Part shown: one piece after another, positions 51,652 to 64,000 of the stretch
How positions within the stretch are numbered: position 1 is the stretch's first letter
Layout of the letters: every line of letters starts with the position of its first letter
Assembly (NCBI GenBank): GCA_002841355.1
Contig: PHFB01000010.1
Location: 1 to 64,000 of the forward strand
Direction of reading: 5' to 3'
Length of the DNA stretch: 64,000 nucleotides
DNA from: Actinobacteria bacterium HGW-Actinobacteria-1
Lineage (GTDB): Bacteria > Actinomycetota > Coriobacteriia > Anaerosomatales > Anaerosomataceae
Made by a program: the position numbers and the translations under genes
Notes under the pieces: generated by a model
The model's input: only the letters and a program-made list of their open reading frames with translations
What the model was told of the DNA's origin: nothing
Database searches by the model: none

Positions 51652-51681
51652 TTGCATGAGAAATACCCCATGGGGTATACT
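51652..51681 (+). promoter_or_regulatory. CsoR/CstR-type operator and promoter of thioredoxin
   Basis: The perfect palindrome ATACCCCATGGGGTAT (51663-51678) lies between TTGCAT (-35, 51652-51657) and TATACT (-10, 51676-51681; 18-bp spacer), overlapping the -10. It matches the TACCCC...GGGGTA operators of CsoR-family repressors and two further copies in this window. Confidence 0.8.
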
Positions 51682-51713: not shown

Positions 51714-52034
51714 ATGAGCGCAGGTGTGAAGGAAATAGCGGAGTCGGAGTTCCAGGCCGAGGTACTCGAATCTGCCGAGCCGGTTGTCGTTGACTTCTGG
51801 GCGCCCTGGTGCGGCCCGTGCCGCATGGTTGGACCCGAGATCGAGAAGCTTGCCGCACGTACCGATGGTGTCAAGTTCGTGAAGGTCAACGTCGACGAGA
51901 GCCGTGAAGTCGCGGTTCGCTATGGTGTCATGAGCATCCCGACGATCGCCAAGTTCGAGAGTGGTACTCTGGTTTCGCAGGTTGTAGGTGCTCGCAGCGC
52001 GGACGCGCTCGGCCGCGAGTTCGGTCTGGTCTGA
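51714..52034 (+). CDS. trxA: Thioredoxin
   Basis: A 106-residue cytoplasmic thioredoxin with VVDFWAPWCGPCRMVGPE (active Cys33 and Cys36), buried Asp27 and the cis-proline in MSIPTIAKF. AAGGAG sits before ATG 51714. Its promoter carries a CsoR-type operator, unlike a housekeeping trx, so it may act in persulfide, thiol or metal stress. FmdB starts 7 bp after its stop. Confidence 0.95.
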   Translation: MSAGVKEIAESEFQAEVLESAEPVVVDFWAPWCGPCRMVGPEIEKLAARTDGVKFVKVNVDESREVAVRYGVMSIPTIAKFESGTLVSQVVGARSADALGREFGLV

Positions 52035-52658: not shown

Positions 52659-52961
52659 TTACTGGACGCAGCTGGAGTACTTGAGGAAGACCTTGATTGC
52701 CTCGTCGATGAGCTCATCGCGAGTCTTGTCGCCATCTTCCACCAGGCACGTCTTCATCGAGTACCCGATGATGTGAAGTCCAACCTGGTTCAGCGCTGAC
52801 TTCGCGGCCATTATCTGAGTCAGAACGGCTTCGCAGTCCTTGCCGGACTCGATCATCGTCTGAAGTCCGCGAACCTGTCCCTCAAGGCGCTTGAGCCTGT
52901 TCACGATCTTGCGGCGCTCTTCTTCGTTGCCGATCGATTCGCTAAGTGATGTCTCGTTCAA
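52659..52961 (-). CDS. CsoR/CstR-family (DUF156) repressor, persulfide-sensor-like
   Basis: A 100-residue all-helical tetrameric repressor: RLKRLEGQVRGLQTMIESGKDCEAV, with IMAAKSALNQVGLHIIGYSMKTCL. The two conserved cysteines are Cys43 and Cys72. The copper-binding His of CsoR (four residues before the second Cys) is Ser68 here. Copper CsoR needs Cys-His-Cys, while CstR uses only the two cysteines to form di- or trisulfide bridges with persulfide, so the residues favour a CstR-like sensor. A third Cys98 is near the end. Its own start lies by a perfect operator (53018-53034), implying autoregulation. Confidence 0.85.
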   Translation of the reverse strand: MNETSLSESIGNEEERRKIVNRLKRLEGQVRGLQTMIESGKDCEAVLTQIMAAKSALNQVGLHIIGYSMKTCLVEDGDKTRDELIDEAIKVFLKYSSCVQ

Positions 52962-53017: not shown

Positions 53018-53034
53018 ATACCCCCAGGGGGTAT
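53018..53034. promoter_or_regulatory. Shared operator for divergent csoR-like and CDF genes
   Basis: ATACCCCCAGGGGGTAT is an exact 8+1+8 palindrome. Leftward it lies between TTGCCC and TATAGT (18 bp apart); rightward between TTGAGT (53008-53013) and TATGCG (53032-53037), again 18 bp. One bound repressor would block both promoters. Confidence 0.85.
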
Positions 53035-53058
53035 GCGGGGGCAAGCTGAGGGGTGCGC

Positions 53059-54000
53059 ATGGGCTACACCAAGTCGCGAACCGGACCTGACGGTTCTCGG
53101 GCAACCGAAATCAAGCGAGTCCTCTGGATCATCCTTGGGCTCAACCTTCTCGTCGCGTGCGCGAAGCTTGCATATGGGCTGATCTCCCGTTCGGTCGGCA
53201 TGACCGCGGACGGGTTTCACTCGATGTTCGATGGAACCTCGAACGTGATCGGTCTCCTCGGCATGGGCATCGCTGCCAGACCGGCCGATGATGATCACCC
53301 GTACGGGCACTCCAAGTACGAGACGTTCGCGTCCGTGGTGATCGGCGCGATGCTACTTCTAGCGGCGTGGCGCGTCGGTACGTCCGCGTTCGACCGCCTG
53401 ATGAATCCCGGAGTGCCCGCGGACGTCAACTGGATCTCGTTCGCCGTCATGCTCGGCACGCTGTGTATCAACATCTTCGTGACGCGCTACGAGCGCAGAG
53501 TCGGCGAGCGACTCGGCAGCGAGATCCTGGTCGCAGATGCCAGCCATACGGGCAGCGACGTGCTTGTCAGCATCGGCGTCATCATCGGACTGATCGCCGT
53601 CAAGCTCGGCTTCCCGATCGCCGACCCTATCGTCGGTCTGGTCGTCGCCGGCTTCATCCTGGTGGCGGCGGTCCGCGTCTTTCGCTCGGCGAACGAGACG
53701 CTATCCGACAGAGCCCGCATCGCACCGGAGGAGATTCGCGGTGTCGCGTTGTCGGTACCTGGCGTGCTCGGCTGCCACGAGGTGCGAACGCGTGGCCCTC
53801 TTGCTGAGGTGTACGTGGACCTACACATCCAAGTCGATGCCTCGGTCAGCGTTGCCGAGGGGCACGCGATCGCCGAGCGGGTGGAGAAGACCATCTGCGA
53901 AAGCCTCGGCCAAGTGACGGACGTCATCGCACACCTCGAGCCGCTGGATGAGTATCAGAAGAGCAAGACGGCCATGCAGGACGCAGAAGGCGCGGTCTGA
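53059..54000 (+). CDS. Cation diffusion facilitator (zinc-type)
   Basis: A 313-residue CDF exporter with six transmembrane helices and a C-terminal cytoplasmic ferredoxin-like domain (residues ~215-295, VPGVLGCHEVRTRGPLAEVYVDLHIQV). The transport site is HSMFD in helix 2 and HTGSD in helix 5, an HxxxD-HxxxD pair typical of zinc or cobalt members. ATG 53059 was chosen because GAGGGG ends 5 bp before it; GTG 53053 overlaps this site. Its promoter is the shared CsoR-type operator. Confidence 0.9.
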   Translation: MGYTKSRTGPDGSRATEIKRVLWIILGLNLLVACAKLAYGLISRSVGMTADGFHSMFDGTSNVIGLLGMGIAARPADDDHPYGHSKYETFASVVIGAMLLLAAWRVGTSAFDRLMNPGVPADVNWISFAVMLGTLCINIFVTRYERRVGERLGSEILVADASHTGSDVLVSIGVIIGLIAVKLGFPIADPIVGLVVAGFILVAAVRVFRSANETLSDRARIAPEEIRGVALSVPGVLGCHEVRTRGPLAEVYVDLHIQVDASVSVAEGHAIAERVEKTICESLGQVTDVIAHLEPLDEYQKSKTAMQDAEGAV

Positions 54001-55025: not shown

Positions 55026-55041
55026 TGGTACGTAGTTTGCT
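55026..55041 (+). promoter_or_regulatory. Sigma-54 (-24/-12) promoter of rpoN
   Basis: TGGTACGTAGTTTGCT fits TGGCACG-N4-TTGCW at every defined position but one (T for C). The GG and GC dinucleotides have the correct spacing. It would start transcription about 35 nt before the rpoN ATG. Confidence 0.65.
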
Positions 55042-55087: not shown

Positions 55088-56482
55088 ATGGAACTCACTC
55101 AACGGCCGGAACTCAGGCAAAAGGTCACCCTCTCGCCCCAGGTGTATCAGGGGCTTACGATTCTTGCGATGCCCGTCGTGGAGCTTCAGTCGCTCATCGA
55201 GACCGAGCTGCTCGAGAATCCGGTACTCGAACTCGAGGAAGACGAGCTCGAGCCCGCTGAGGAGAGCGACGACCGGACTGAGGATATCGAGGAAGAACGC
55301 GCGTGGGATGACTGGCTCGATCAATACGACGATCTTGAGAGTCTCGATTCCAGCGCACCGCGTGATCCCAACCAGGAGGAAGTGAACTCCGACGAATTCG
55401 TCGGAGGCGTGCAGACCTTCGACGACTACCTCCTGGACCAGCTTGGGATGATGGACGTCTCCGATGACGTGGCGCGCGCGGCGCGTGCAATCATCGGGAC
55501 GCTCGATGATGACGGTCTGTTCGTCGGCACGTGCGCGGAGATAGCGGCAATCGCAGGGGTCTCAACCTCGATCGCCGAGCAGGCCCTCGCGGTTGTCCAG
55601 CAGCTTGACCCTCCCGGTGTGGGTGCTCGCAGCGTCCGCGAGGCGCTGAAGATACAAGCCGCATTCCTTGGCATCGACTCGCCGCTGGTGGTCGCGCTGA
55701 TCGAGCGGCATCTTGACGCGGTGGCTTCGAGTCACACCAGGAAGATCGCCCGCATCGAGCGTGTCTCGGAGGACGAGGTACGCGAGGCGGTCGAGCTGCT
55801 CAAGCAGCTGAATCCCAGACCTGCCGGGTCGTTCTCGCCGGGCCAGGCGCCGTCGTACGTGGTGCCCGACCTCACGCTGCGCCGATTTGGCGACGAATGG
55901 CTGATCATCCCGAACAACGAGGCGGTCCCCACGCTCAAGGTGAGCCCGAAGTATCGCCAGATGCTTCGCTCTCAGTCGAAGGTGGATGACGAGACTCGCA
56001 AGTACCTGAAGGACAAGATCCGCTCGGCGGAATCGTTCTTGCGCAATGTCGATCGGCGTCGCGATACGGTCAGCCGTATCGCCGAGATAATCCTTGAGAC
56101 GCAACGAGACTTCTTCGAGGATGGCAAGGGCGATATGCGACCGCTCCGGCTTGAGGATGTCTCATCCGAGATCGGCGTGCACCTGAGCACTGTGAGCCGG
56201 GGGGTCACCGGCAAGTACATGGCCACCCCGTACGGCTTGTTCGAGCTAAAGCATTTCTTCTCGGGCGGCTACAGGACATCGAGTGGCATGGACGTGGCGG
56301 CAACCACCGTCAAGCGCCGGATCCGTGAGCTCCTGGATGCAGAGGATGCCGCGAGACCGCTGTCGGACCAGAAGCTTGCCGAGGCGCTCTCTGCGGAAGG
56401 GGTCGACGTCGCGCGGCGCACAGTCGCCAAGTACCGTGAGGAGATCGGCATCGAGCCATCTTGGGCGAGGAAACGTCGATGA
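55088..56482 (+). CDS. rpoN: RNA polymerase sigma-54 factor
   Basis: Alternative sigma factor that needs an AAA+ activator to open promoters. Region I (MELTQRPELRQKVTLSPQVYQGLTILAMPVVELQSLIETELLENP) is Gln/Leu-rich, followed by an acidic stretch, the core-binding domain, the HTH (LEDVSSEIGVHLSTVSRGVTGKYM) and the RpoN box ARRTVAKYRE at residues 442-451. 464 residues. ATG 55088 has GGAGG upstream. Its TGA overlaps the next ATG, forming a three-gene operon with the kinase and activator. Confidence 0.97.
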   Translation: MELTQRPELRQKVTLSPQVYQGLTILAMPVVELQSLIETELLENPVLELEEDELEPAEESDDRTEDIEEERAWDDWLDQYDDLESLDSSAPRDPNQEEVNSDEFVGGVQTFDDYLLDQLGMMDVSDDVARAARAIIGTLDDDGLFVGTCAEIAAIAGVSTSIAEQALAVVQQLDPPGVGARSVREALKIQAAFLGIDSPLVVALIERHLDAVASSHTRKIARIERVSEDEVREAVELLKQLNPRPAGSFSPGQAPSYVVPDLTLRRFGDEWLIIPNNEAVPTLKVSPKYRQMLRSQSKVDDETRKYLKDKIRSAESFLRNVDRRRDTVSRIAEIILETQRDFFEDGKGDMRPLRLEDVSSEIGVHLSTVSRGVTGKYMATPYGLFELKHFFSGGYRTSSGMDVAATTVKRRIRELLDAEDAARPLSDQKLAEALSAEGVDVARRTVAKYREEIGIEPSWARKRR

Positions 56483-58023
56483 GCGCCGAGCGGTCGGATT
56501 CGCAACGCAGGGCAACTGAGGCCCGCTCCGATGAGACGCTGATGTCGAGCGGGCGCAGCGAGGCGCGTGACGTCGCGCTCATCGTCGTGCTCCTCGGTGC
56601 CATCACTGTGCTGCACCTCTTCACGTCGACGTCGCCACAAGCGATGCCGATGCATCTGCTGTACCGCAAGCTCTTCTACCTGCCGGTGATGTTCGCGGGC
56701 TTCGTGTTCGGCCGAAGGGGAGGTTTCATCACTGCGGTGGCCGCCAGCCTGCTGTTCGCGCTGCATGCGACGGTGTCACTCGGTGGTCTGCTCGGTGAGC
56801 ATATCGACAACCTCTACGAGATCGTCATGTATCTTGCGGTCGGCATTATGTTCGGTTGGCTTCGAGACCTCTCGGAAGTGAAGACGACCGATCTTCGTCA
56901 GCTCAGTCGTCAGCTTGAGGATGCCTACAGGAAGCTCGAAGAGCGCGCAATCCAGCTAGTGAACATCCAGGACTACACGCAATCGATCCTCAGGTCGATC
57001 ACATCGGGCGTCGTAACGGTCGGTCCGGACGGCTCGGTTGCGACGGCGAATCCCGCCGCGGAGCGCATGCTCGGGGTTCGTGAGGTCGATATCGTGCCCC
57101 GGCGGATAGGCACCCTCTTCGCGGACGACTCTGGACTGGATGAAGAGGTCGCGAAGGTCCTGAAAGGCCGCATTCCGAAGTCGGTCAAAGACATGCGGCT
57201 TGTGACGAGGGCAGGGAAGATCCTGCATGTTCAGGCGTCGACCTCGCGGATGCGAGACGTCGACGGTCGGATTCTCGGCGCGGTCGTCACGATCGAGGAT
57301 GTGTCAGAGGTCAAGGCGCTCACCGACCAGCTCATTCGGGCGGACCGCCTGGCCGCGATGGGCGAACTCACCGCCGGCGTTGCGCACGAGGTGCGGAACC
57401 CGCTCGGCATCATCCGGGCCTCTGTCCAACTGGTTGAGGAGTCCGGGTGCGATCGAGAGCGCGTCCTTGAGGCGACGAGTGTCATCAAACAGGAGATTGA
57501 CCGACTGGATCGCGTGATCAAGGCACTTCTGGACTTCGGACGACCGTCCAAGCCGTATCTCCGGCTGACGGATATCGGCGAGGTGATCGAGGACGTGGTG
57601 TTGTTCACGCGTCGCTTTGCCGGCCAGTCGAAGGTTACGATATCAGCCCAGGGCGTCGGTTCGCTGCCGAAGGTCATGGCCGATCCGGACCAGTTGAAGC
57701 AGGTGTTCGTGAACCTCATCTCGAATGCCGTGCAGGCAATGGACCCGGCCGGCGGTCTCATCGTGTTGCAGGGGAGCAGCGAGGACGGGTTCCTCTCCGT
57801 GCAGGTCTCGGACAACGGGCCGGGTATTCCGGCGTCGGACTTGAAGAAGGTGTTCGACCCGTTCTACTCGACTCGCGATGCTGGAACCGGTCTCGGGTTG
57901 ACGATCGTGCACCGCATACTCGATGAACATGACGGTCATATCGAAGTTGCGAGCGTGCCAGGGCAGGGTACGACCTTTACTGTGTCGCTCCCGGTGTTCC
58001 AGGCAGGCGAGGAGGACAGATGA
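56479..58023 (+). CDS. NtrB/AtoS-type sensor histidine kinase
   Basis: A 514-residue sensor kinase. The N-terminus holds about four transmembrane helices (residues 35-130) without a large outer loop, so it likely senses inside the membrane or cytoplasm. A coiled helix leads to a PAS domain (ILRSITSGVVTVGPDGSVATANPAAERMLG, about 170-280). The H-box GELTAGVAHEVRNPLG has His303, followed by the N box NLISNAVQAM, DNGPGIP and GTGLGLTIV. It overlaps rpoN and the response-regulator gene, and its partner is clearly the latter. Confidence 0.92.
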   Translation: MSAERSDSQRRATEARSDETLMSSGRSEARDVALIVVLLGAITVLHLFTSTSPQAMPMHLLYRKLFYLPVMFAGFVFGRRGGFITAVAASLLFALHATVSLGGLLGEHIDNLYEIVMYLAVGIMFGWLRDLSEVKTTDLRQLSRQLEDAYRKLEERAIQLVNIQDYTQSILRSITSGVVTVGPDGSVATANPAAERMLGVREVDIVPRRIGTLFADDSGLDEEVAKVLKGRIPKSVKDMRLVTRAGKILHVQASTSRMRDVDGRILGAVVTIEDVSEVKALTDQLIRADRLAAMGELTAGVAHEVRNPLGIIRASVQLVEESGCDRERVLEATSVIKQEIDRLDRVIKALLDFGRPSKPYLRLTDIGEVIEDVVLFTRRFAGQSKVTISAQGVGSLPKVMADPDQLKQVFVNLISNAVQAMDPAGGLIVLQGSSEDGFLSVQVSDNGPGIPASDLKKVFDPFYSTRDAGTGLGLTIVHRILDEHDGHIEVASVPGQGTTFTVSLPVFQAGEEDR

Positions 58024-59369
58024 AGCGGCGCGTATTGATCGCCGATGATGAGAAGAACATGCGGTGGGTTCTCGGCCAGGCATTGAGTGCCGAAGGCTAT
58101 GAGATCATCGAGGCGGCGGACGGCAAAGAGGTACTCGCTGCGATCAGCGAACAGCCGCCGGACCTCATGGTGCTCGACCACAAGATGCCCGCCCCTGATG
58201 GCATGGAAGTGCTTCGTCGGCTCAGGGCAAAGGGGCATACGTTCCCGATCATCATGCTCACCGCGCATGGGAATGTAGCAAGCGCGGTCGAAGCCATGAA
58301 GGCGGGAGCGAGCGAGTACCTGACGAAGCCGTTCGATCTTGAGGAGCTCAAGCTCAGTATCGAGAAGGCGCTCAAAGTCGGCGACCTCGCCGCTGAGGTC
58401 ACGCGATTGCGCGAGGAACTCGACCGGGACTATGACGTGTCCGGGATCGTCGCTGCGGACCCCGCGATGCTCAACATCATCGAGACGACGAGGAAGGTAG
58501 CACCCACCAGCGCCACGGTCATGATCTACGGAGAGTCCGGCACCGGCAAGGAGTTGGTCGCTCGGGCCCTTCACACGCTTTCAAATCGCGCCAGCAAGCC
58601 GTTCGTGTCAGTCAGTGCCGGGGCGCTGCCGGAGACGCTCCTTGAGAGCGAGCTGTTCGGCTATGAGAAGGGTGCTTTCACCGGAGCGATGCAGGCGAAG
58701 CCCGGTCGGTTCGAGCTCGCCAACGGCGGAACGCTCTTCCTCGATGAGATCGGCGACATCAGTCCTGGCGTTCAGGTGAAGCTGCTTCGCGTGATGCAGG
58801 AGCGGACATTCGAGCGGCTTGGCGGCACGCGACCGATAGAGGTCGATGTGCGCGTGGTTGCTGCGACGAACCGGGATTTGCAGCAGTTGATCGCCGACGG
58901 CGCATTCCGAGAGGACCTGTACTACCGTCTCAACGTCGTCCCCATAACGCTGCCTCCGTTGCGTCAGCGACCGAGTGAGATTCCGCTGCTGGTCGCGCAC
59001 TTCCTCGAGAAACAGAAGGCCGGCTCAAAGCACATCTCGGCTGAGGCCATGAACCTGCTCTCGGAGTATCAGTGGCCCGGCAATGTCCGTGAACTCGAGA
59101 ACACCATCGAGCGAATAGCGATTCTGTCGCGCAATGACGAGATCGGTGTTGAGGACCTGCCTGCTGAAGTTCGGGCGGGCGTGGCGATGTGCTCGCCGGG
59201 GGAGCGCTGCTTCGTGCTCCCGGAGGCTGGCGTCGATCTTGAAGAGGTCGAGCTTGAGTTCGTCAAGCAGGCCCTCGAACGCACCGGTGGAACGACACCG
59301 AAAGCCGCCAAGCTTCTCGGCCTGACGACTAAGACGCTTGAGGCGAGGATGGAGAAGTACGGCCTGTAG
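58020..59369 (+). CDS. NtrC-family sigma-54-dependent response regulator
   Basis: A 449-residue activator with three domains. The receiver has acidic Asp9/Asp10, the phosphoacceptor Asp53 in LMVLDHKMP and the Lys in LTKPF. The AAA+ domain has Walker A GESGTGKE (171-178), the sigma-54 contact loop GAFTGA (218-223), Walker B TLFLDEIGD and the sensor region. The C-terminal Fis-type HTH is GGTTPKAAKLLGLTTKTLEARMEKYGL. Its gene overlaps the kinase gene and lies 28 bp before a perfect sigma-54 promoter. Confidence 0.95.
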   Translation: MKRRVLIADDEKNMRWVLGQALSAEGYEIIEAADGKEVLAAISEQPPDLMVLDHKMPAPDGMEVLRRLRAKGHTFPIIMLTAHGNVASAVEAMKAGASEYLTKPFDLEELKLSIEKALKVGDLAAEVTRLREELDRDYDVSGIVAADPAMLNIIETTRKVAPTSATVMIYGESGTGKELVARALHTLSNRASKPFVSVSAGALPETLLESELFGYEKGAFTGAMQAKPGRFELANGGTLFLDEIGDISPGVQVKLLRVMQERTFERLGGTRPIEVDVRVVAATNRDLQQLIADGAFREDLYYRLNVVPITLPPLRQRPSEIPLLVAHFLEKQKAGSKHISAEAMNLLSEYQWPGNVRELENTIERIAILSRNDEIGVEDLPAEVRAGVAMCSPGERCFVLPEAGVDLEEVELEFVKQALERTGGTTPKAAKLLGLTTKTLEARMEKYGL

Positions 59370-59396: not shown

Positions 59397-59412
59397 TGGC
59401 ACGACGCTTGCA
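59397..59412 (+). promoter_or_regulatory. Perfect sigma-54 promoter before the zinc-ribbon membrane gene
   Basis: TGGCACGACGCTTGCA matches TGGCACG-N4-TTGCW at every defined base. It starts 28 bp after the activator gene and about 40 bp before ATG 59453. It predicts that the zinc-ribbon/HMA pair is a direct target of the upstream RpoN system. Confidence 0.88.
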
Positions 59413-59452: not shown

Positions 59453-59806
59453 ATGCAGCAGCAACGCAACCGGAATACGATCATCGTGGCGGCAGGAGTC
59501 ATCGCCGTCACTGCACTCGTCGCCGGTCTGGTGCTGATCGTCAATACTGAGGCCGGCTATGCCTGCACCGGTGCCGCCGAATTCGGCTGGCTCGCTCCGC
59601 TTTTCGCCGCGACAATCATCGGCGGTCTGGCGTGGGTGCTTCTGAGCCAGGACCCTCGTACTCCCGATGACACGGACTCGACACCGCACGCAGAGTGCCC
59701 AGAGTGTGGACGGTCGGTGCTTGGGCAATGGCGTATGTGTCCGTACTGCGGCGAGATGCTCGACGCCCGTCATCCCTCTCGATTCGCCGCCACACACGGC
59801 AAGTAG
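59453..59806 (+). CDS. Two-helix membrane protein with C-terminal zinc ribbon
   Basis: A 117-residue protein of no family I can name. Two transmembrane helices (about residues 10-30 and 43-63) are joined by a short outer loop containing Cys38, then a cytoplasmic tail ends in a zinc ribbon CPECGR...CPYCGE (two CxxC pairs, 11 residues between them). It sits behind the perfect sigma-54 promoter and 23 bp before the HMA gene. A role in metal or redox sensing or trafficking is only an inference from this context. Confidence 0.78.
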   Translation: MQQQRNRNTIIVAAGVIAVTALVAGLVLIVNTEAGYACTGAAEFGWLAPLFAATIIGGLAWVLLSQDPRTPDDTDSTPHAECPECGRSVLGQWRMCPYCGEMLDARHPSRFAATHGK

Positions 59807-59829
59807 ACGTTCCCTCAAGGAGGCACACC

Positions 59830-60054
59830 ATGGCCGAATCCGTAACCACTCGTTTCGTCACCACGGGGATGCACTGTCATTCCTGTGCGATGCTCATCCA
59901 GCTCACCGTGTCCGATATGACTGGAGTCACTGCGGTCGACGTCGACAACGCGGCGGGCATGACTGTTGTCACGTACGACCCGGCGAAGGTCACGCCGGAG
60001 GGGATCATCGGGGAGATCGTTGCGGCGGGGTATGGTGCCGAGGTCGCCAGCTAG
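59830..60054 (+). CDS. HMA-domain metallochaperone (CopZ-like)
   Basis: A 74-residue beta-alpha-beta-beta-alpha-beta protein with the metal motif TGMHCHSCAMLI (CxxC at Cys16 and Cys19). The remaining VDVDNAAGMTVVTYDP strands fit the HMA fold. It probably carries copper(I) or another soft metal. CAAGGAGGC precedes ATG 59830. Likely in the sigma-54 transcript with the zinc-ribbon protein, and 122 bp before ccdA. Confidence 0.88.
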   Translation: MAESVTTRFVTTGMHCHSCAMLIQLTVSDMTGVTAVDVDNAAGMTVVTYDPAKVTPEGIIGEIVAAGYGAEVAS

Positions 60055-60061
60055 TCGCCGA

Positions 60062-60092
60062 TTGGACGAGAAATACCCCCTGGGGGTATAGT
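60062..60092 (+). promoter_or_regulatory. CsoR/CstR-type operator and promoter of ccdA
   Basis: ATACCCCCTGGGGGTAT (60073-60089), an exact 8+1+8 palindrome, sits between TTGGAC (60062-60067) and TATAGT (60087-60092; 19-bp spacer). Third copy of the same operator in the window. Confidence 0.8.
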
Positions 60093-60105
60093 ATGTCGAG
60101 CAACG

Positions 60106-60130
60106 AAGAGACCGCTTCGGGCGGTCTCTT
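60106..60130. terminator. Hairpin at the 5' end of the ccdA transcript
   Basis: AAGAGACCGC (60106-60115) pairs perfectly with GCGGTCTCTT (60121-60130) around TTCGG, followed by TC. It starts roughly 7 nt after the predicted transcription start. It could end readthrough from the HMA gene, attenuate ccdA or protect the mRNA end. Confidence 0.65.
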
Positions 60131-60176
60131 TCGTAGGCGGATCGTCTGATAGCGGTTCTGACGGATTGGACATGCT

Positions 60177-60923
60177 GTGCCGGATGTCACTGTGAGCTAT
60201 TTCAGCGCGTTTCTCGGAGGACTTCTCTCATTCCTGTCGCCGTGCGTGTTACCCCTTATTCCTGGCTACCTGTCCTTCATGACGGGACTGAGCGCAGGCG
60301 ACTTGCGAAGCGGGGAGTCGAGCGTTCGGCGCATTCTGCTTCCGGCCGGATTGTTCACACTCGGTTTCTCTGTCGTCTTCGTGCTTCTTGGGGCTGCCGC
60401 CGGCTTTGCAAGCGCCGCACTTCGGCCATTCATGATCAGGTATGAGAGCACCATCGGTGTCGCAGCGGGAATCATCATCGTGCTCGTCGGCGTGTTCCTG
60501 CTCGGCGTGATCAAGCTGCCATGGCTGTACGGCGAGGCCCGGTTCGAGTTGTCGAAGTCGAAGCGCTTCGGCCGGGGAGCGTCATTCGTGATGGGCCTTG
60601 CATTTGGATTCGGTTGGACGCCCTGCGTCGGTCCCATTCTCGCAGTGATCCTTGGGATGGCTGCACAGACCGGGAATGCCGCCCAGGCCGCGCTGATGCT
60701 GGCGGTGTACTCTCTCGGGCTGGCCACGCCATTCCTGTTGACCGCGGCGTTCTTCGGCAAGCTCACAGGTACGCTGAGCTGGTTCAATCGCCATTCGCTT
60801 GCTCTTTCTAGGAGCGCCGGCGTGATTCTTATCGCGATGGGTGTGCTGATTGCGACCGGTCAGCTCGGCAAGCTGTCAGCGATCATAATCCGCGCTCTGC
60901 CGTTCCTTTCTCGGCTTGGGTGA
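60177..60923 (+). CDS. ccdA: Cytochrome c biogenesis / thiol-reduction membrane protein CcdA
   Basis: A 248-residue six-helix protein that passes electrons from cytoplasmic thioredoxin to thiols outside the membrane. The two hallmark cysteine helices are FLSPCVLPLIPGYLSF and GWTPCVGPILAVILG. GTG 60177 is used; no strong ribosome site is visible. The operator in its promoter links it to the thioredoxin at 51714, which is the natural reductant of CcdA. No ccmG/ResA-type partner is in the window. Confidence 0.92.
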   Translation: MPDVTVSYFSAFLGGLLSFLSPCVLPLIPGYLSFMTGLSAGDLRSGESSVRRILLPAGLFTLGFSVVFVLLGAAAGFASAALRPFMIRYESTIGVAAGIIIVLVGVFLLGVIKLPWLYGEARFELSKSKRFGRGASFVMGLAFGFGWTPCVGPILAVILGMAAQTGNAAQAALMLAVYSLGLATPFLLTAAFFGKLTGTLSWFNRHSLALSRSAGVILIAMGVLIATGQLGKLSAIIIRALPFLSRLG

Positions 60924-60994: not shown

Positions 60995-63900
60995 ATGTCG
61001 GGTCCCTGGCCGATCAAGCGGAGTCTCGCGAACGGATACACGCTGCTGGTAGCGGTGTTGGTGGCGCTGACGACGCTCATCCTTGCGAGCGCGCTGGCCC
61101 GCGGTGTGTACTCCATGGCGCTGCGCGAGGAGACGGCGCGACAGCGCGCGCAAAGCGACCTCGTCGTCCGCGATGTCTCATCCCGGCTGCTCGCCTCATA
61201 CCGCGTCTTGCGCACGCTAGCCGATCGGGACGTGATCAGGGGCGTTGACGATCGCGCTGTGGGAAGGGCGCTCGCGAGCGCCTACGTCGAGAATGCCGAG
61301 TACCTCCGCGGTATTGCGCTGGTCGACCTCGACGGTACGGCCCGAATCGCGTATCCAGCCACGAGCCAGCTCCCTCCAGACGAACTGGTCCGGTCCGCTG
61401 ACCTGACGCAAGGAGTCGCGTACCTCTGGGTTGATGCGACCGATGACGCGCCGGGTGCGTTGTGGGTCGTTGTGCCCACGCGTCGCGCAGACGGGCATGA
61501 CGCGGTCTTGGTGGGCGTCGCGCGGACCGGCTTCATCGACGAGGCACTCAAGCAGGTCAGCTTCTCGGAGAAGCGTCCGACCGCACTTGTGGCTGATGAC
61601 AAGAGCAGGAGTGTCTTCACGGCCGGTGATCCGCAGGCCTACCTGGACTCAAGCATCACCTTCGAGCCATCGCTCGAAGATGCGTCCCTTGGCTCGGTTC
61701 TTATCACCTCAGCCGAGGGTCAGCGCTTCACCGGAGTATTCGCCACCATCCCTGGTTTGCCGGGGCTGGACTGGCGGGTGTTGGTGGCTGAGCGGGAGAG
61801 CGTGGTCGCCGCCGAAACGTGGCAGGCGCTCAGACCTGCGGTGCTTGCCTGGGGTGCCTCGTCGTCGCTTGCCATGTTGCTGGCGCTCGTCTCCGTCACC
61901 TTTCTCTCGAGACCACTACGCCTCCTGGACGAGCGCGCACGCGCAGCGGCATCTGGCGTGATGCTCGAACCCCTACCCGTGAAGCGCAACGACGAGATAG
62001 GTCGACTGATCGCGTCATTCAACTCGGTCGTGCTCCGGCTCAACGGCATGCACGACATCAGCCAGTTGTTGGCGAGTGCATCAGACATCGACGAGGTGCT
62101 CGACAGGATCCTTGTTTCGCTCTCACACATCCTTGGCGCGCGCGACGTGGACATCTTGTTGCTCGAGGACGATGGGGCTTCGCTTCGTCTGGCGCGTGCA
62201 TCCGGTTCTGTCGTCGATGCGGTGGGTGCTCGGATCTCTCCGTCGGAATCCGCATGGCTTGCCGAGGCGGTGGCGTCCGGCGAATTAGAGCAGTTCTCGG
62301 GGGACGGGCGTGCCGACCCATTGCTACGTCTGCATCGTCCGAGTGCGACCGATACCTGCGCGCTGGCGGTTCCTCTGGCGAAGGGCCGGTCGGTACTCGG
62401 CATCGTGGCGATTGTCTGCGACGCGCGACAGCCCTTCACGGATGCCGAGATCGAGGTCGCGCGCTCGTTCGCCGCGCAGGCTTCCGTCGCGCTTGATAAC
62501 GCTCGCCTGTTCGACGACGAGCGTCGCTCGCGCCGCGATGCCGAGGCGCTCCAGCAAGTCGCCGAGATCATGAGCGGATCAGCTGCGTTGCTGGAGTCAT
62601 TGGAGTCCATCGCATCGATTGAGGCGGACTTATTGGGAGCGGATCGCTCATGGGTGTTCCTCGATAGCTCGACGGTTGCATCGCAGGATGTAGGGGAGAT
62701 ATCTCGCAGCTGCTTCGCGCTGTGGCGGAAGCTTCAGTCCGAGCGTCGAGTGTCAGCATTTGCGCTGCCAGTCGCATTCTCCGCGGACGACGAGGACGGA
62801 GATGTCCGATCGCTGCTCAAGATGCTAGCGGTGCAATCCGCCGTGATCACGCCGATCTCGATTCATGGCGACCTCGCTGGACTGCTCGTCATGGGGTGGT
62901 CTGGGAGGACATTCACGCTCGATCGGCACGGTATCGAACTCGGGTCTGCAATCGGACAGCAGGTGGCGCTCGCGTTGGACAACGCAAGGCTGTTCGAGGA
63001 GGCGCGTACGCGTGCCGACAACCTTGAGACCATATTCCGAATCTCCCAGGCAGTGAGCTCGTCGCTGCAGAGCAAGGTCGTCCTCAATCGAGTGCTCGAC
63101 GTCGTGCAGAAGATTCTCTCTGCCGACGCGGTGATGCTCATGACCCTCGACACGGATCGCTCGCTGATGGTGGTTCCGATGGCGCGGGGGATTCTGAATC
63201 CGGAGATGCTGAGGATGGAGTTCCGTGCCGGGGAGGACGTGCCCGGCGAGGTGTTCGAGCGACGTGAACCTGTCAGTGTGCCGGATCTCTCTGATTCGGA
63301 TTCGCCACTGTCCCGCATAGCCGCCCGACAGAAGCTTGGCTCGGCCGTATTCGTGCCGTTGTTGGCGCGTGGACGATCGATCGGCGTATTGGCGGTCTTC
63401 GCCCAAAGCAGGAGCGCCTTCACGGAATCCGATGTGGAACTGCTTCGGACGTTCGCGACGCAGGCTGCGCTAGCGATAGACAACGCCGATATGTTCAGCC
63501 GTGAACACCACGTGGCCACGGTTCTCCAGCACAGCATCTTGCCGACCCGCTTGCCCACGATAGACGGAATCGAATCTGCGAGCGTGTATGTTCCGGCCGG
63601 ATCCGAGGTCGAGATCGGAGGAGACTACTACGATCTGTTCCTTGCACCCGACGGACGGGTGGTCGTTGCCATCGGTGACGTGTGCGGCAAGGGAGTCGAG
63701 GCCGCCACCAAGACGTCCATGATCAAGTACTCCATCAGGGGAATGATCGCAGCGGGAGCGGCACCCTCGTCCGTTCTCGCCGAGCTGAATACTGCACTGG
63801 TGAGTGCGGGCGATCCATCGGACATCGTCACGTTATGGCTCGGGATGCTGGAGATCGACAGCGGGAAGCTGGAATGGGCGAATGGGGGTCATCCTCCGGC

Positions 63901-64000
63901 GATGCTTCTGCAGCCAAGCACTGGAGAAATCGTACGGCTGGGGACCACGGGTGCGCTTCTTGGCGCGATTCGAGATGCCGCGTACAGTGACTCCAGCATC
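60995..64000 (+). CDS. Cache-like/HAMP/GAF/PP2C sensor phosphatase (3' end outside window)
   Basis: At least 1002 residues; the frame is open to the last base. An N-terminal helix (residues ~9-30) and a second one (about 290-310) enclose an extracytoplasmic sensor of about 250 residues. A HAMP segment follows (SRPLRLLDERARAA...NDEIGRLIASFNSVV), then three GAF domains (about 360-510, 520-670 and 680-835), and a SpoIIE-type PP2C domain with GGDYYD, AIGDVCGKGVEAA and WANGGHPPAML. It is the second phosphatase of this class in the window. ATG 60995 follows GGCGG. It carries all the metal-binding Asp residues seen so far. Confidence 0.88.
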   Translation, partial: MSGPWPIKRSLANGYTLLVAVLVALTTLILASALARGVYSMALREETARQRAQSDLVVRDVSSRLLASYRVLRTLADRDVIRGVDDRAVGRALASAYVENAEYLRGIALVDLDGTARIAYPATSQLPPDELVRSADLTQGVAYLWVDATDDAPGALWVVVPTRRADGHDAVLVGVARTGFIDEALKQVSFSEKRPTALVADDKSRSVFTAGDPQAYLDSSITFEPSLEDASLGSVLITSAEGQRFTGVFATIPGLPGLDWRVLVAERESVVAAETWQALRPAVLAWGASSSLAMLLALVSVTFLSRPLRLLDERARAAASGVMLEPLPVKRNDEIGRLIASFNSVVLRLNGMHDISQLLASASDIDEVLDRILVSLSHILGARDVDILLLEDDGASLRLARASGSVVDAVGARISPSESAWLAEAVASGELEQFSGDGRADPLLRLHRPSATDTCALAVPLAKGRSVLGIVAIVCDARQPFTDAEIEVARSFAAQASVALDNARLFDDERRSRRDAEALQQVAEIMSGSAALLESLESIASIEADLLGADRSWVFLDSSTVASQDVGEISRSCFALWRKLQSERRVSAFALPVAFSADDEDGDVRSLLKMLAVQSAVITPISIHGDLAGLLVMGWSGRTFTLDRHGIELGSAIGQQVALALDNARLFEEARTRADNLETIFRISQAVSSSLQSKVVLNRVLDVVQKILSADAVMLMTLDTDRSLMVVPMARGILNPEMLRMEFRAGEDVPGEVFERREPVSVPDLSDSDSPLSRIAARQKLGSAVFVPLLARGRSIGVLAVFAQSRSAFTESDVELLRTFATQAALAIDNADMFSREHHVATVLQHSILPTRLPTIDGIESASVYVPAGSEVEIGGDYYDLFLAPDGRVVVAIGDVCGKGVEAATKTSMIKYSIRGMIAAGAAPSSVLAELNTALVSAGDPSDIVTLWLGMLEIDSGKLEWANGGHPPAMLLQPSTGEIVRLGTTGALLGAIRDAAYSDSSI

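Follow-up and report, generated by a model that had tools for sequence, protein, structure and literature searches.

Two-component control of copper genes through sigma-54 is known from Myxococcus xanthus (CorSR/curA; PMC3707914), and a zinc-ribbon protein is linked to sigma-54 in Helicobacter pylori, where FlgZ (HP0958) protects RpoN from turnover (PMC3372290). A survey published in 2025 described Actinomycetota as effectively without functional RpoN, for which it offered genome GC content as an explanation (PMC12316311). In contrast to that survey, the GC-rich actinobacterial order Anaerosomatales (class Coriobacteriia) has rpoN in 66 of 69 genomes (the remaining three are 73–91% complete), together with a compact and conserved promoter set. 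We analysed a window of 64,000 nucleotides (the whole stretch of DNA under study) from one member of this order, Actinobacteria bacterium HGW-Actinobacteria-1. A sequence-only reading of the window had singled out a small zinc-ribbon membrane protein (here called ZR) and an HMA chaperone encoded behind a sigma-54 promoter.

The rpoN gene block and the zinc-ribbon protein

The genes of interest stand in the order trx, csoR (minus strand), CDF, EamA, rpoN, HK, RR, ZR, HMA, ccdA and GAF/SpoIIE. On the plus strand of the window, they code for a thioredoxin (trx, 51714–52034; WCGPC, assigned by domain match and residue check), a cation diffusion facilitator (CDF, 53053–54000; domain match), sigma-54 (rpoN, 55088–56482; TIGR02395 401 bits against a cut-off of 277, with the start taken at MELTQ), a membrane histidine kinase with a PAS domain (HK, 56461–58023; start uncertain), an NtrC-class response regulator (RR, 58020–59369), ZR (59453–59806), a CopZ-like HMA protein of 74 residues with the motif GMHCHSC (59830–60054) and a CcdA-like membrane thiol-electron carrier (ccdA, 60177–60923; DsbD_TM), whose Cys23 and Cys150 are both kept in 38/38 orthologs. 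The ZR and HMA reading frames are thus present as first proposed; immediately ahead of the pair come rpoN (from 55088) and the two-component system (56461–59369), and the csoR-family repressor gene (52659–52961, minus strand) is 7 kb upstream of it.

A ZR homolog was found in 56 of the 61 genomes searched, and 11–20 kb around the gene were taken from 40 of these 56. The neighbourhood of ZR, whose conservation the sequence-only reading had left to a comparison of related genomes, recurs as the same gene block in these 40 relatives, which belong to ~16 families of Anaerosomatales, and the order is largely kept wherever the contig reaches. There are local losses or insertions (a match to CDF, EamA or trx is absent from some loci); moreover, HMA was undetected in two loci (L042 and L065) and ccdA is missing from another (L048). 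A second scan, of named genomes, showed the same arrangement at 31 loci, with many genomes shared between the two sets, and assigned the ZR-bearing group to Coriobacteriia/Anaerosomatales. Downstream of ccdA, a protein with GAF and a SpoIIE-type phosphatase (60995–64000 in the window) is found in nearly all relatives.

ZR had been described as a 117-residue two-helix protein with a cytoplasmic zinc ribbon, and the reading frame, the Pfam match (Zn_ribbon_3 at 27.2 bits, where the cut-off is 27) and the topology predictions agree on this. Two transmembrane segments and a net-positive N-terminus were predicted in 41/41 orthologs; therefore, the orientation is probably N-in/C-in, with the ribbon (CPEC-x10-CPYC) on the cytoplasmic side. 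The AF2 model (helices 2–32 and 43–65 plus a small beta ribbon; pLDDT 73, pTM 0.35) agrees with this topology in outline, and is to be taken with moderate confidence. Across the 41 orthologs, W93, P97, G100 and all four cysteines of the ribbon are invariant and R94 is present in 39; the extracytoplasmic cysteine is not conserved. DUF164 was absent from the Pfam matches of ZR up to E = 1. In a profile search, full-length ZR was found only in Anaerosomatales, the rest of the class giving only weak, short matches to the ribbon (E from 1e-3 to 1e-6). Distant matches in Alicyclobacillus, Bacillota bins, Anaerolineae and Acidobacteria were rejected, as they concern a generic ribbon only and have no rpoN, HMA or ccdA nearby. 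Occurrence of the gene apart from HMA, ccdA and rpoN would have spoken against the sequence-only reading; full-length ZR was found only in this neighbourhood, albeit with a constancy of neighbours that suffers the exceptions listed above for HMA and ccdA and, from the other side, the existence of rpoN-HK-RR without ZR in other families. We regard ZR as an undescribed family of membrane zinc-ribbon proteins.

Outside the order, only 16 genomes of the class, all from one family, exceeded the rpoN cut-off; in a phylum-wide sample, 18 of 396 genomes did. Exactly one strong sigma-54 activator was detected in 31 of 41 genomes, two in seven, and a partial one or none in three fragmented genomes; in most genomes the single activator is the RR encoded beside rpoN. 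This regulator has the make-up of a sigma-54-dependent two-component system, namely a receiver, an AAA+ domain with GAFTGA, an HTH_8 domain and a paired kinase, and -24/-12 promoters precede the target genes (see below). His 52, 65 and 102 and Met 123 in the membrane region of the kinase are conserved in about 90% of orthologs and could form a metal or haem site. The rpoN-HK-RR triad without ZR exists in other actinobacterial families; in four such loci (L222–L225, families f43 and f91), HMA, ccdA and the small RNA discussed below are lacking as well, and the regulator is ~60% identical. The second strong activator in the genome of the window is NifA, encoded beside nifD (L132, G000:C21:257000–274900), and nitrogen fixation is probable in this actinobacterium. 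Its position beside nifD ruled out NifA as a rival activator of the ZR, rpoN and small-RNA promoters.

Sigma-54-type promoters and an associated small RNA

The promoter claimed for ZR and HMA is a perfect -24/-12 sigma-54 site (TGGCACGACGCTTGCA, 59397–59412, plus strand). Such a site might be a chance match, with ZR-HMA being read through from the RR gene; indeed, there are two perfect sites in this GC-rich genome of 2.4 Mb, and the reversed pattern yields as many or more. Sites with at most one mismatch are no commoner genome-wide than those of the reversed-pattern control, and the counts are consequently uninformative on the size of the regulon. What makes the ZR promoter significant is its conservation rather than the perfect match alone: TGGCAYRNNNNTTGCA occurs directly before ZR, at the same position, in 40/40 relatives from ~16 families, and it is also present in the 31 loci of the second, overlapping scan. 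Furthermore, the site is missing exactly where ZR is missing. In G040 and G047 both are gone, HMA directly follows RR and the rpoN promoter is retained; in G051, the locus lacks ZR, HMA, ccdA and every sigma-54 site, and no small RNA was detected in the genome. Since gene and promoter were lost together in three lineages (G040, G047 and G051), the promoter is tied to ZR, and conservation and co-loss argue strongly against a chance match, which we reject as very unlikely.

A second sigma-54-type promoter (TGGTACGTAGTTTGCT, 55026–55041, plus strand) is located 62 bp before the start of rpoN, and TGGTAY...TTGCW is found at −40 to −75 before rpoN in 38 of 39 loci, an apparent self-activation loop as judged from the promoter. 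The regions upstream of HK, RR, GAF, CcdA, CDF and Trx rarely contain anything close to a sigma-54 site. Perfect sites were also seen upstream of hemA in two genomes that share a genus (L117 and L118) and, in another, upstream of a multihaem cytochrome-like gene (L121); these may be due to chance.

Other perfect sites led to an intergenic element of roughly 100 nt, composed of two hairpins with C-rich loops and a terminator. A covariance model detected it in 67 of 69 Anaerosomatales genomes, usually in two copies, and gave only two weak matches among the 177 remaining genomes of the class. Of 21 consensus pairs, 17 show one or more two-sided changes that preserve pairing, in a set of sequences that is small and related. 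The two copies in the genome of the window (the L096/L202 pair; G000:C20:38246–38343 and G000:C21:190968–191069, both on the minus strand) lie outside the window and behind a -24/-12 site. A -24/-12-like element at near-constant spacing precedes the RNA in 30 loci picked by the model and in 20 further copies, a few promoters deviating at one conserved base. Because the copies behind the model had been located through their promoters, a fair test of promoter association is provided by those left out of the building; these carry the promoter too. A search for a regulator binding site, in the form of an upstream activator dyad shared by the ZR and small-RNA promoters, revealed nothing convincing. 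No Rfam family exceeded its gathering threshold with the small RNA. The known family 6C RNA (RF01066, actinomycetes) was rejected at a best score of 30.9 bits against a gathering value of 47: it is similar in having two hairpins, loops with roughly six C or more and a length of about 100 nt, but the RNA found here differs in this sub-gathering score, its sigma-54-type promoter, its usual presence in two copies and its occurrence in Anaerosomatales. We regard it as an unlisted family.

Copper genes of the ZR operon and the CstR-like regulon

The pairing of ZR with a CopZ-like HMA chaperone stands: the HMA domain is clear (Pfam HMA, 49.6 bits), orthologs keep an M/LxCxxC motif, and the protein combines, as CopZ-type proteins do, the HMA fold with MxCxxC. 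Nevertheless, it scores below the CopZ equivalog cut-offs, and the profile does not fix the identity of the metal. The window's own family has an operon of ZR and HMA only; for this reason, the case for copper depends on other families. In several of these, the ZR promoter leads a longer operon, in which the stretch from ZR to ccdA encodes a DsbD_2-cupredoxin membrane protein, a CopZ-like protein, a membrane cupredoxin and an ATPase of CopA type (610.7 bits with TIGR01511, whose cut-off is 397), or a selection of these. At another place in two genomes (L106 and L123), a sigma-54 site precedes genes for a small secreted Cys-rich protein, a DsbD_2-cupredoxin protein and CopA (domains checked for L106). 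These two gene sets, with their CopA, cupredoxin and DsbD_2 domains, are the best clue to copper, or a like metal, as the object of the target set, while the several P-type ATPases encoded elsewhere in the genome of the window count against a copper reading of the operon. Thus, the chaperone and ribbon, originally taken as the sigma-54 target, are a genuine part of it and not the whole, both because other families add CopA, cupredoxins and DsbD_2 and because sigma-54-type promoters also precede rpoN and two small RNAs.

Copper sensors of the CsoR family bind the metal through Cys-His-Cys ligands. The repressor encoded in the block keeps both cysteines (Cys43 and Cys72) and has Ser68 at the position of the copper-ligand His; as judged by alignment with solved CsoR proteins, the residue there is Ser in 36 and Ala in 3 of the 39 orthologs. 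These residues led us to reject a copper-sensing CsoR. Retention of both cysteines without this His is the established fingerprint of the persulfide sensor CstR, and the repressor is thus predicted from its residues to be CstR-like, a thiol or persulfide (sulfur) sensor. As the sequence-only reading had it, ccdA stands behind a CsoR-type operator, a perfect palindrome (ATACCCCCTGGGGGTAT, 60073–60089); the implied copper system falls with the missing ligand. Further operators are found between csoR and CDF (53018–53034) and, with a 2-bp spacer, upstream of trx (51663–51678). Within one mismatch, ATACCCC-N3-GGGGTA occurs in the whole genome only at 60073–60089 and 53018–53034. The csoR/CDF operator is present in 39/39 relatives whose contig reaches there, the trx operator in most relatives, and the ccdA operator, at a score of at least 12/14, in 23/40. 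The ccdA gene looks like a unit separate from the ZR-HMA pair. Two control systems do meet at ccdA, as had been suggested, but the second appears to be of thiol/sulfur type. The probable ccdA leader contains, between the operator and the gene, a GC-rich hairpin followed by T (60104–60134); strong hairpins of this kind are present in several relatives, and a terminator or an attenuator are both possible.

A proposed metal-stress circuit and its relation to known systems

Our best explanation, which we hold to be rather probable, is an order-wide Anaerosomatales circuit of metal stress under a sigma-54 two-component system, standing beside a thiol regulon of persulfide type. It is built on gene order, promoters, operators, the RNA family and residues read from sequence; from these we infer the signal, the phosphorelay, the activation, the function of ZR and the RNA targets. 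The kinase would respond to a thiophilic metal, with excess Cu(I) as the likeliest candidate, or to the consequences of that metal for the envelope, and would phosphorylate RR, upon which sigma-54 RNA polymerase would turn on the metal-trafficking operon; the signal could alternatively be redox, haem or envelope stress. The rpoN, HK and RR genes would be switched on by sigma-54 as well, giving positive feedback, as would the small RNAs, which could cover Shine-Dalgarno sequences with their C-rich loops. ZR may serve as an adaptor, its zinc ribbon tethered to the cytoplasmic face of the membrane, that either cooperates with CopZ/CopA or exerts feedback on the sigma-54 machinery. The CstR-like system, in answer to sulfur or thiol stress, would supply thiol reductant (from thioredoxin to CcdA), and through this supply the two systems would meet on the cysteine chemistry of the envelope. 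Whether sigma-54 is nearly single-purpose and self-activating, with a core regulon of rpoN-HK-RR, ZR plus copper genes and usually two small RNAs, the thiol regulon beside it and ZR as a new type of adaptor or feedback protein, is a proposition that we rate as evenly balanced.

There is an alternative reading of ZR: it could be a regulatory partner of the sigma-54 machinery that tunes RpoN, the kinase or the regulator, the metal genes being passengers. ZR always stands directly behind rpoN-HK-RR, it is absent together with its promoter in three lineages, the ribbon alone is invariant, and FlgZ sets a precedent (PMC3372290) as a zinc-ribbon protein linked to RpoN. FlgZ, however, is a DUF164 protein, whereas ZR has two transmembrane helices and no DUF164 match; the constant operon partners of ZR are CopZ, CopA and DsbD_2; and rpoN-HK-RR persists without ZR in G040, G047 and other families, so that ZR is not needed for RpoN there. 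We judge such a role for ZR to be unlikely. The presence of ccdA, trx and the CstR-like repressor in the same conserved block, and of several DsbD_2 genes, would also fit a circuit answering envelope thiol/sulfur stress or general envelope stress, with the CopZ- and DsbD-like proteins serving cytochrome or disulfide maturation. The recurrence of a copper-type ATPase, CopZ-like proteins and cupredoxins, in the sigma-54 operon and again behind another sigma-54 site, argues against this, and we consider it improbable.

The original observation is borne out and proves far more general: the proposed circuit reaches beyond ZR and HMA to rpoN, copper genes and a pair of small RNAs. It resembles a natural minimal sigma-54 system, in most genomes with a single activator, probably self-activating and with only a few promoters, in which the purpose of retaining sigma-54 becomes directly testable. 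It adds a membrane zinc-ribbon family and a small RNA family with sigma-54-type promoters to those described, and it is a case of metal and thiol control systems that have remained physically linked across ~16 families.

Parts of this arrangement have counterparts elsewhere. The repressor shares with the CstR regulon the two conserved cysteines, the absence of the copper-ligand His and targets of sulfur/thiol type (trx and ccdA), but its targets here are trx, CDF and ccdA, in place of the sulfide-oxidation genes of Staphylococcus. In several families the operon recalls CopZ/CopA systems by its HMA protein with MxCxxC, its cupredoxins and its CopA-type ATPase, the difference being that these are found here behind a sigma-54 promoter and the ZR gene and not under CueR or a copper CsoR. 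That no described system has this layout holds within the literature searched, with the reservation that sigma-54 control of copper genes as such is known from CorSR (PMC3707914). CorSR of Myxococcus differs in belonging to a proteobacterium with many activators, in having rpoN outside the operon and no ZR, in a periplasmic kinase sensor domain, in an ECF factor partner described by the authors and in that no small RNAs are described (PMC3707914). Yet its response regulator is likewise a sigma-54 activator, and its copper operon contains cupredoxin and CopA genes with putative sigma-54 promoters (PMC3707914); CorSR is the nearest described system.
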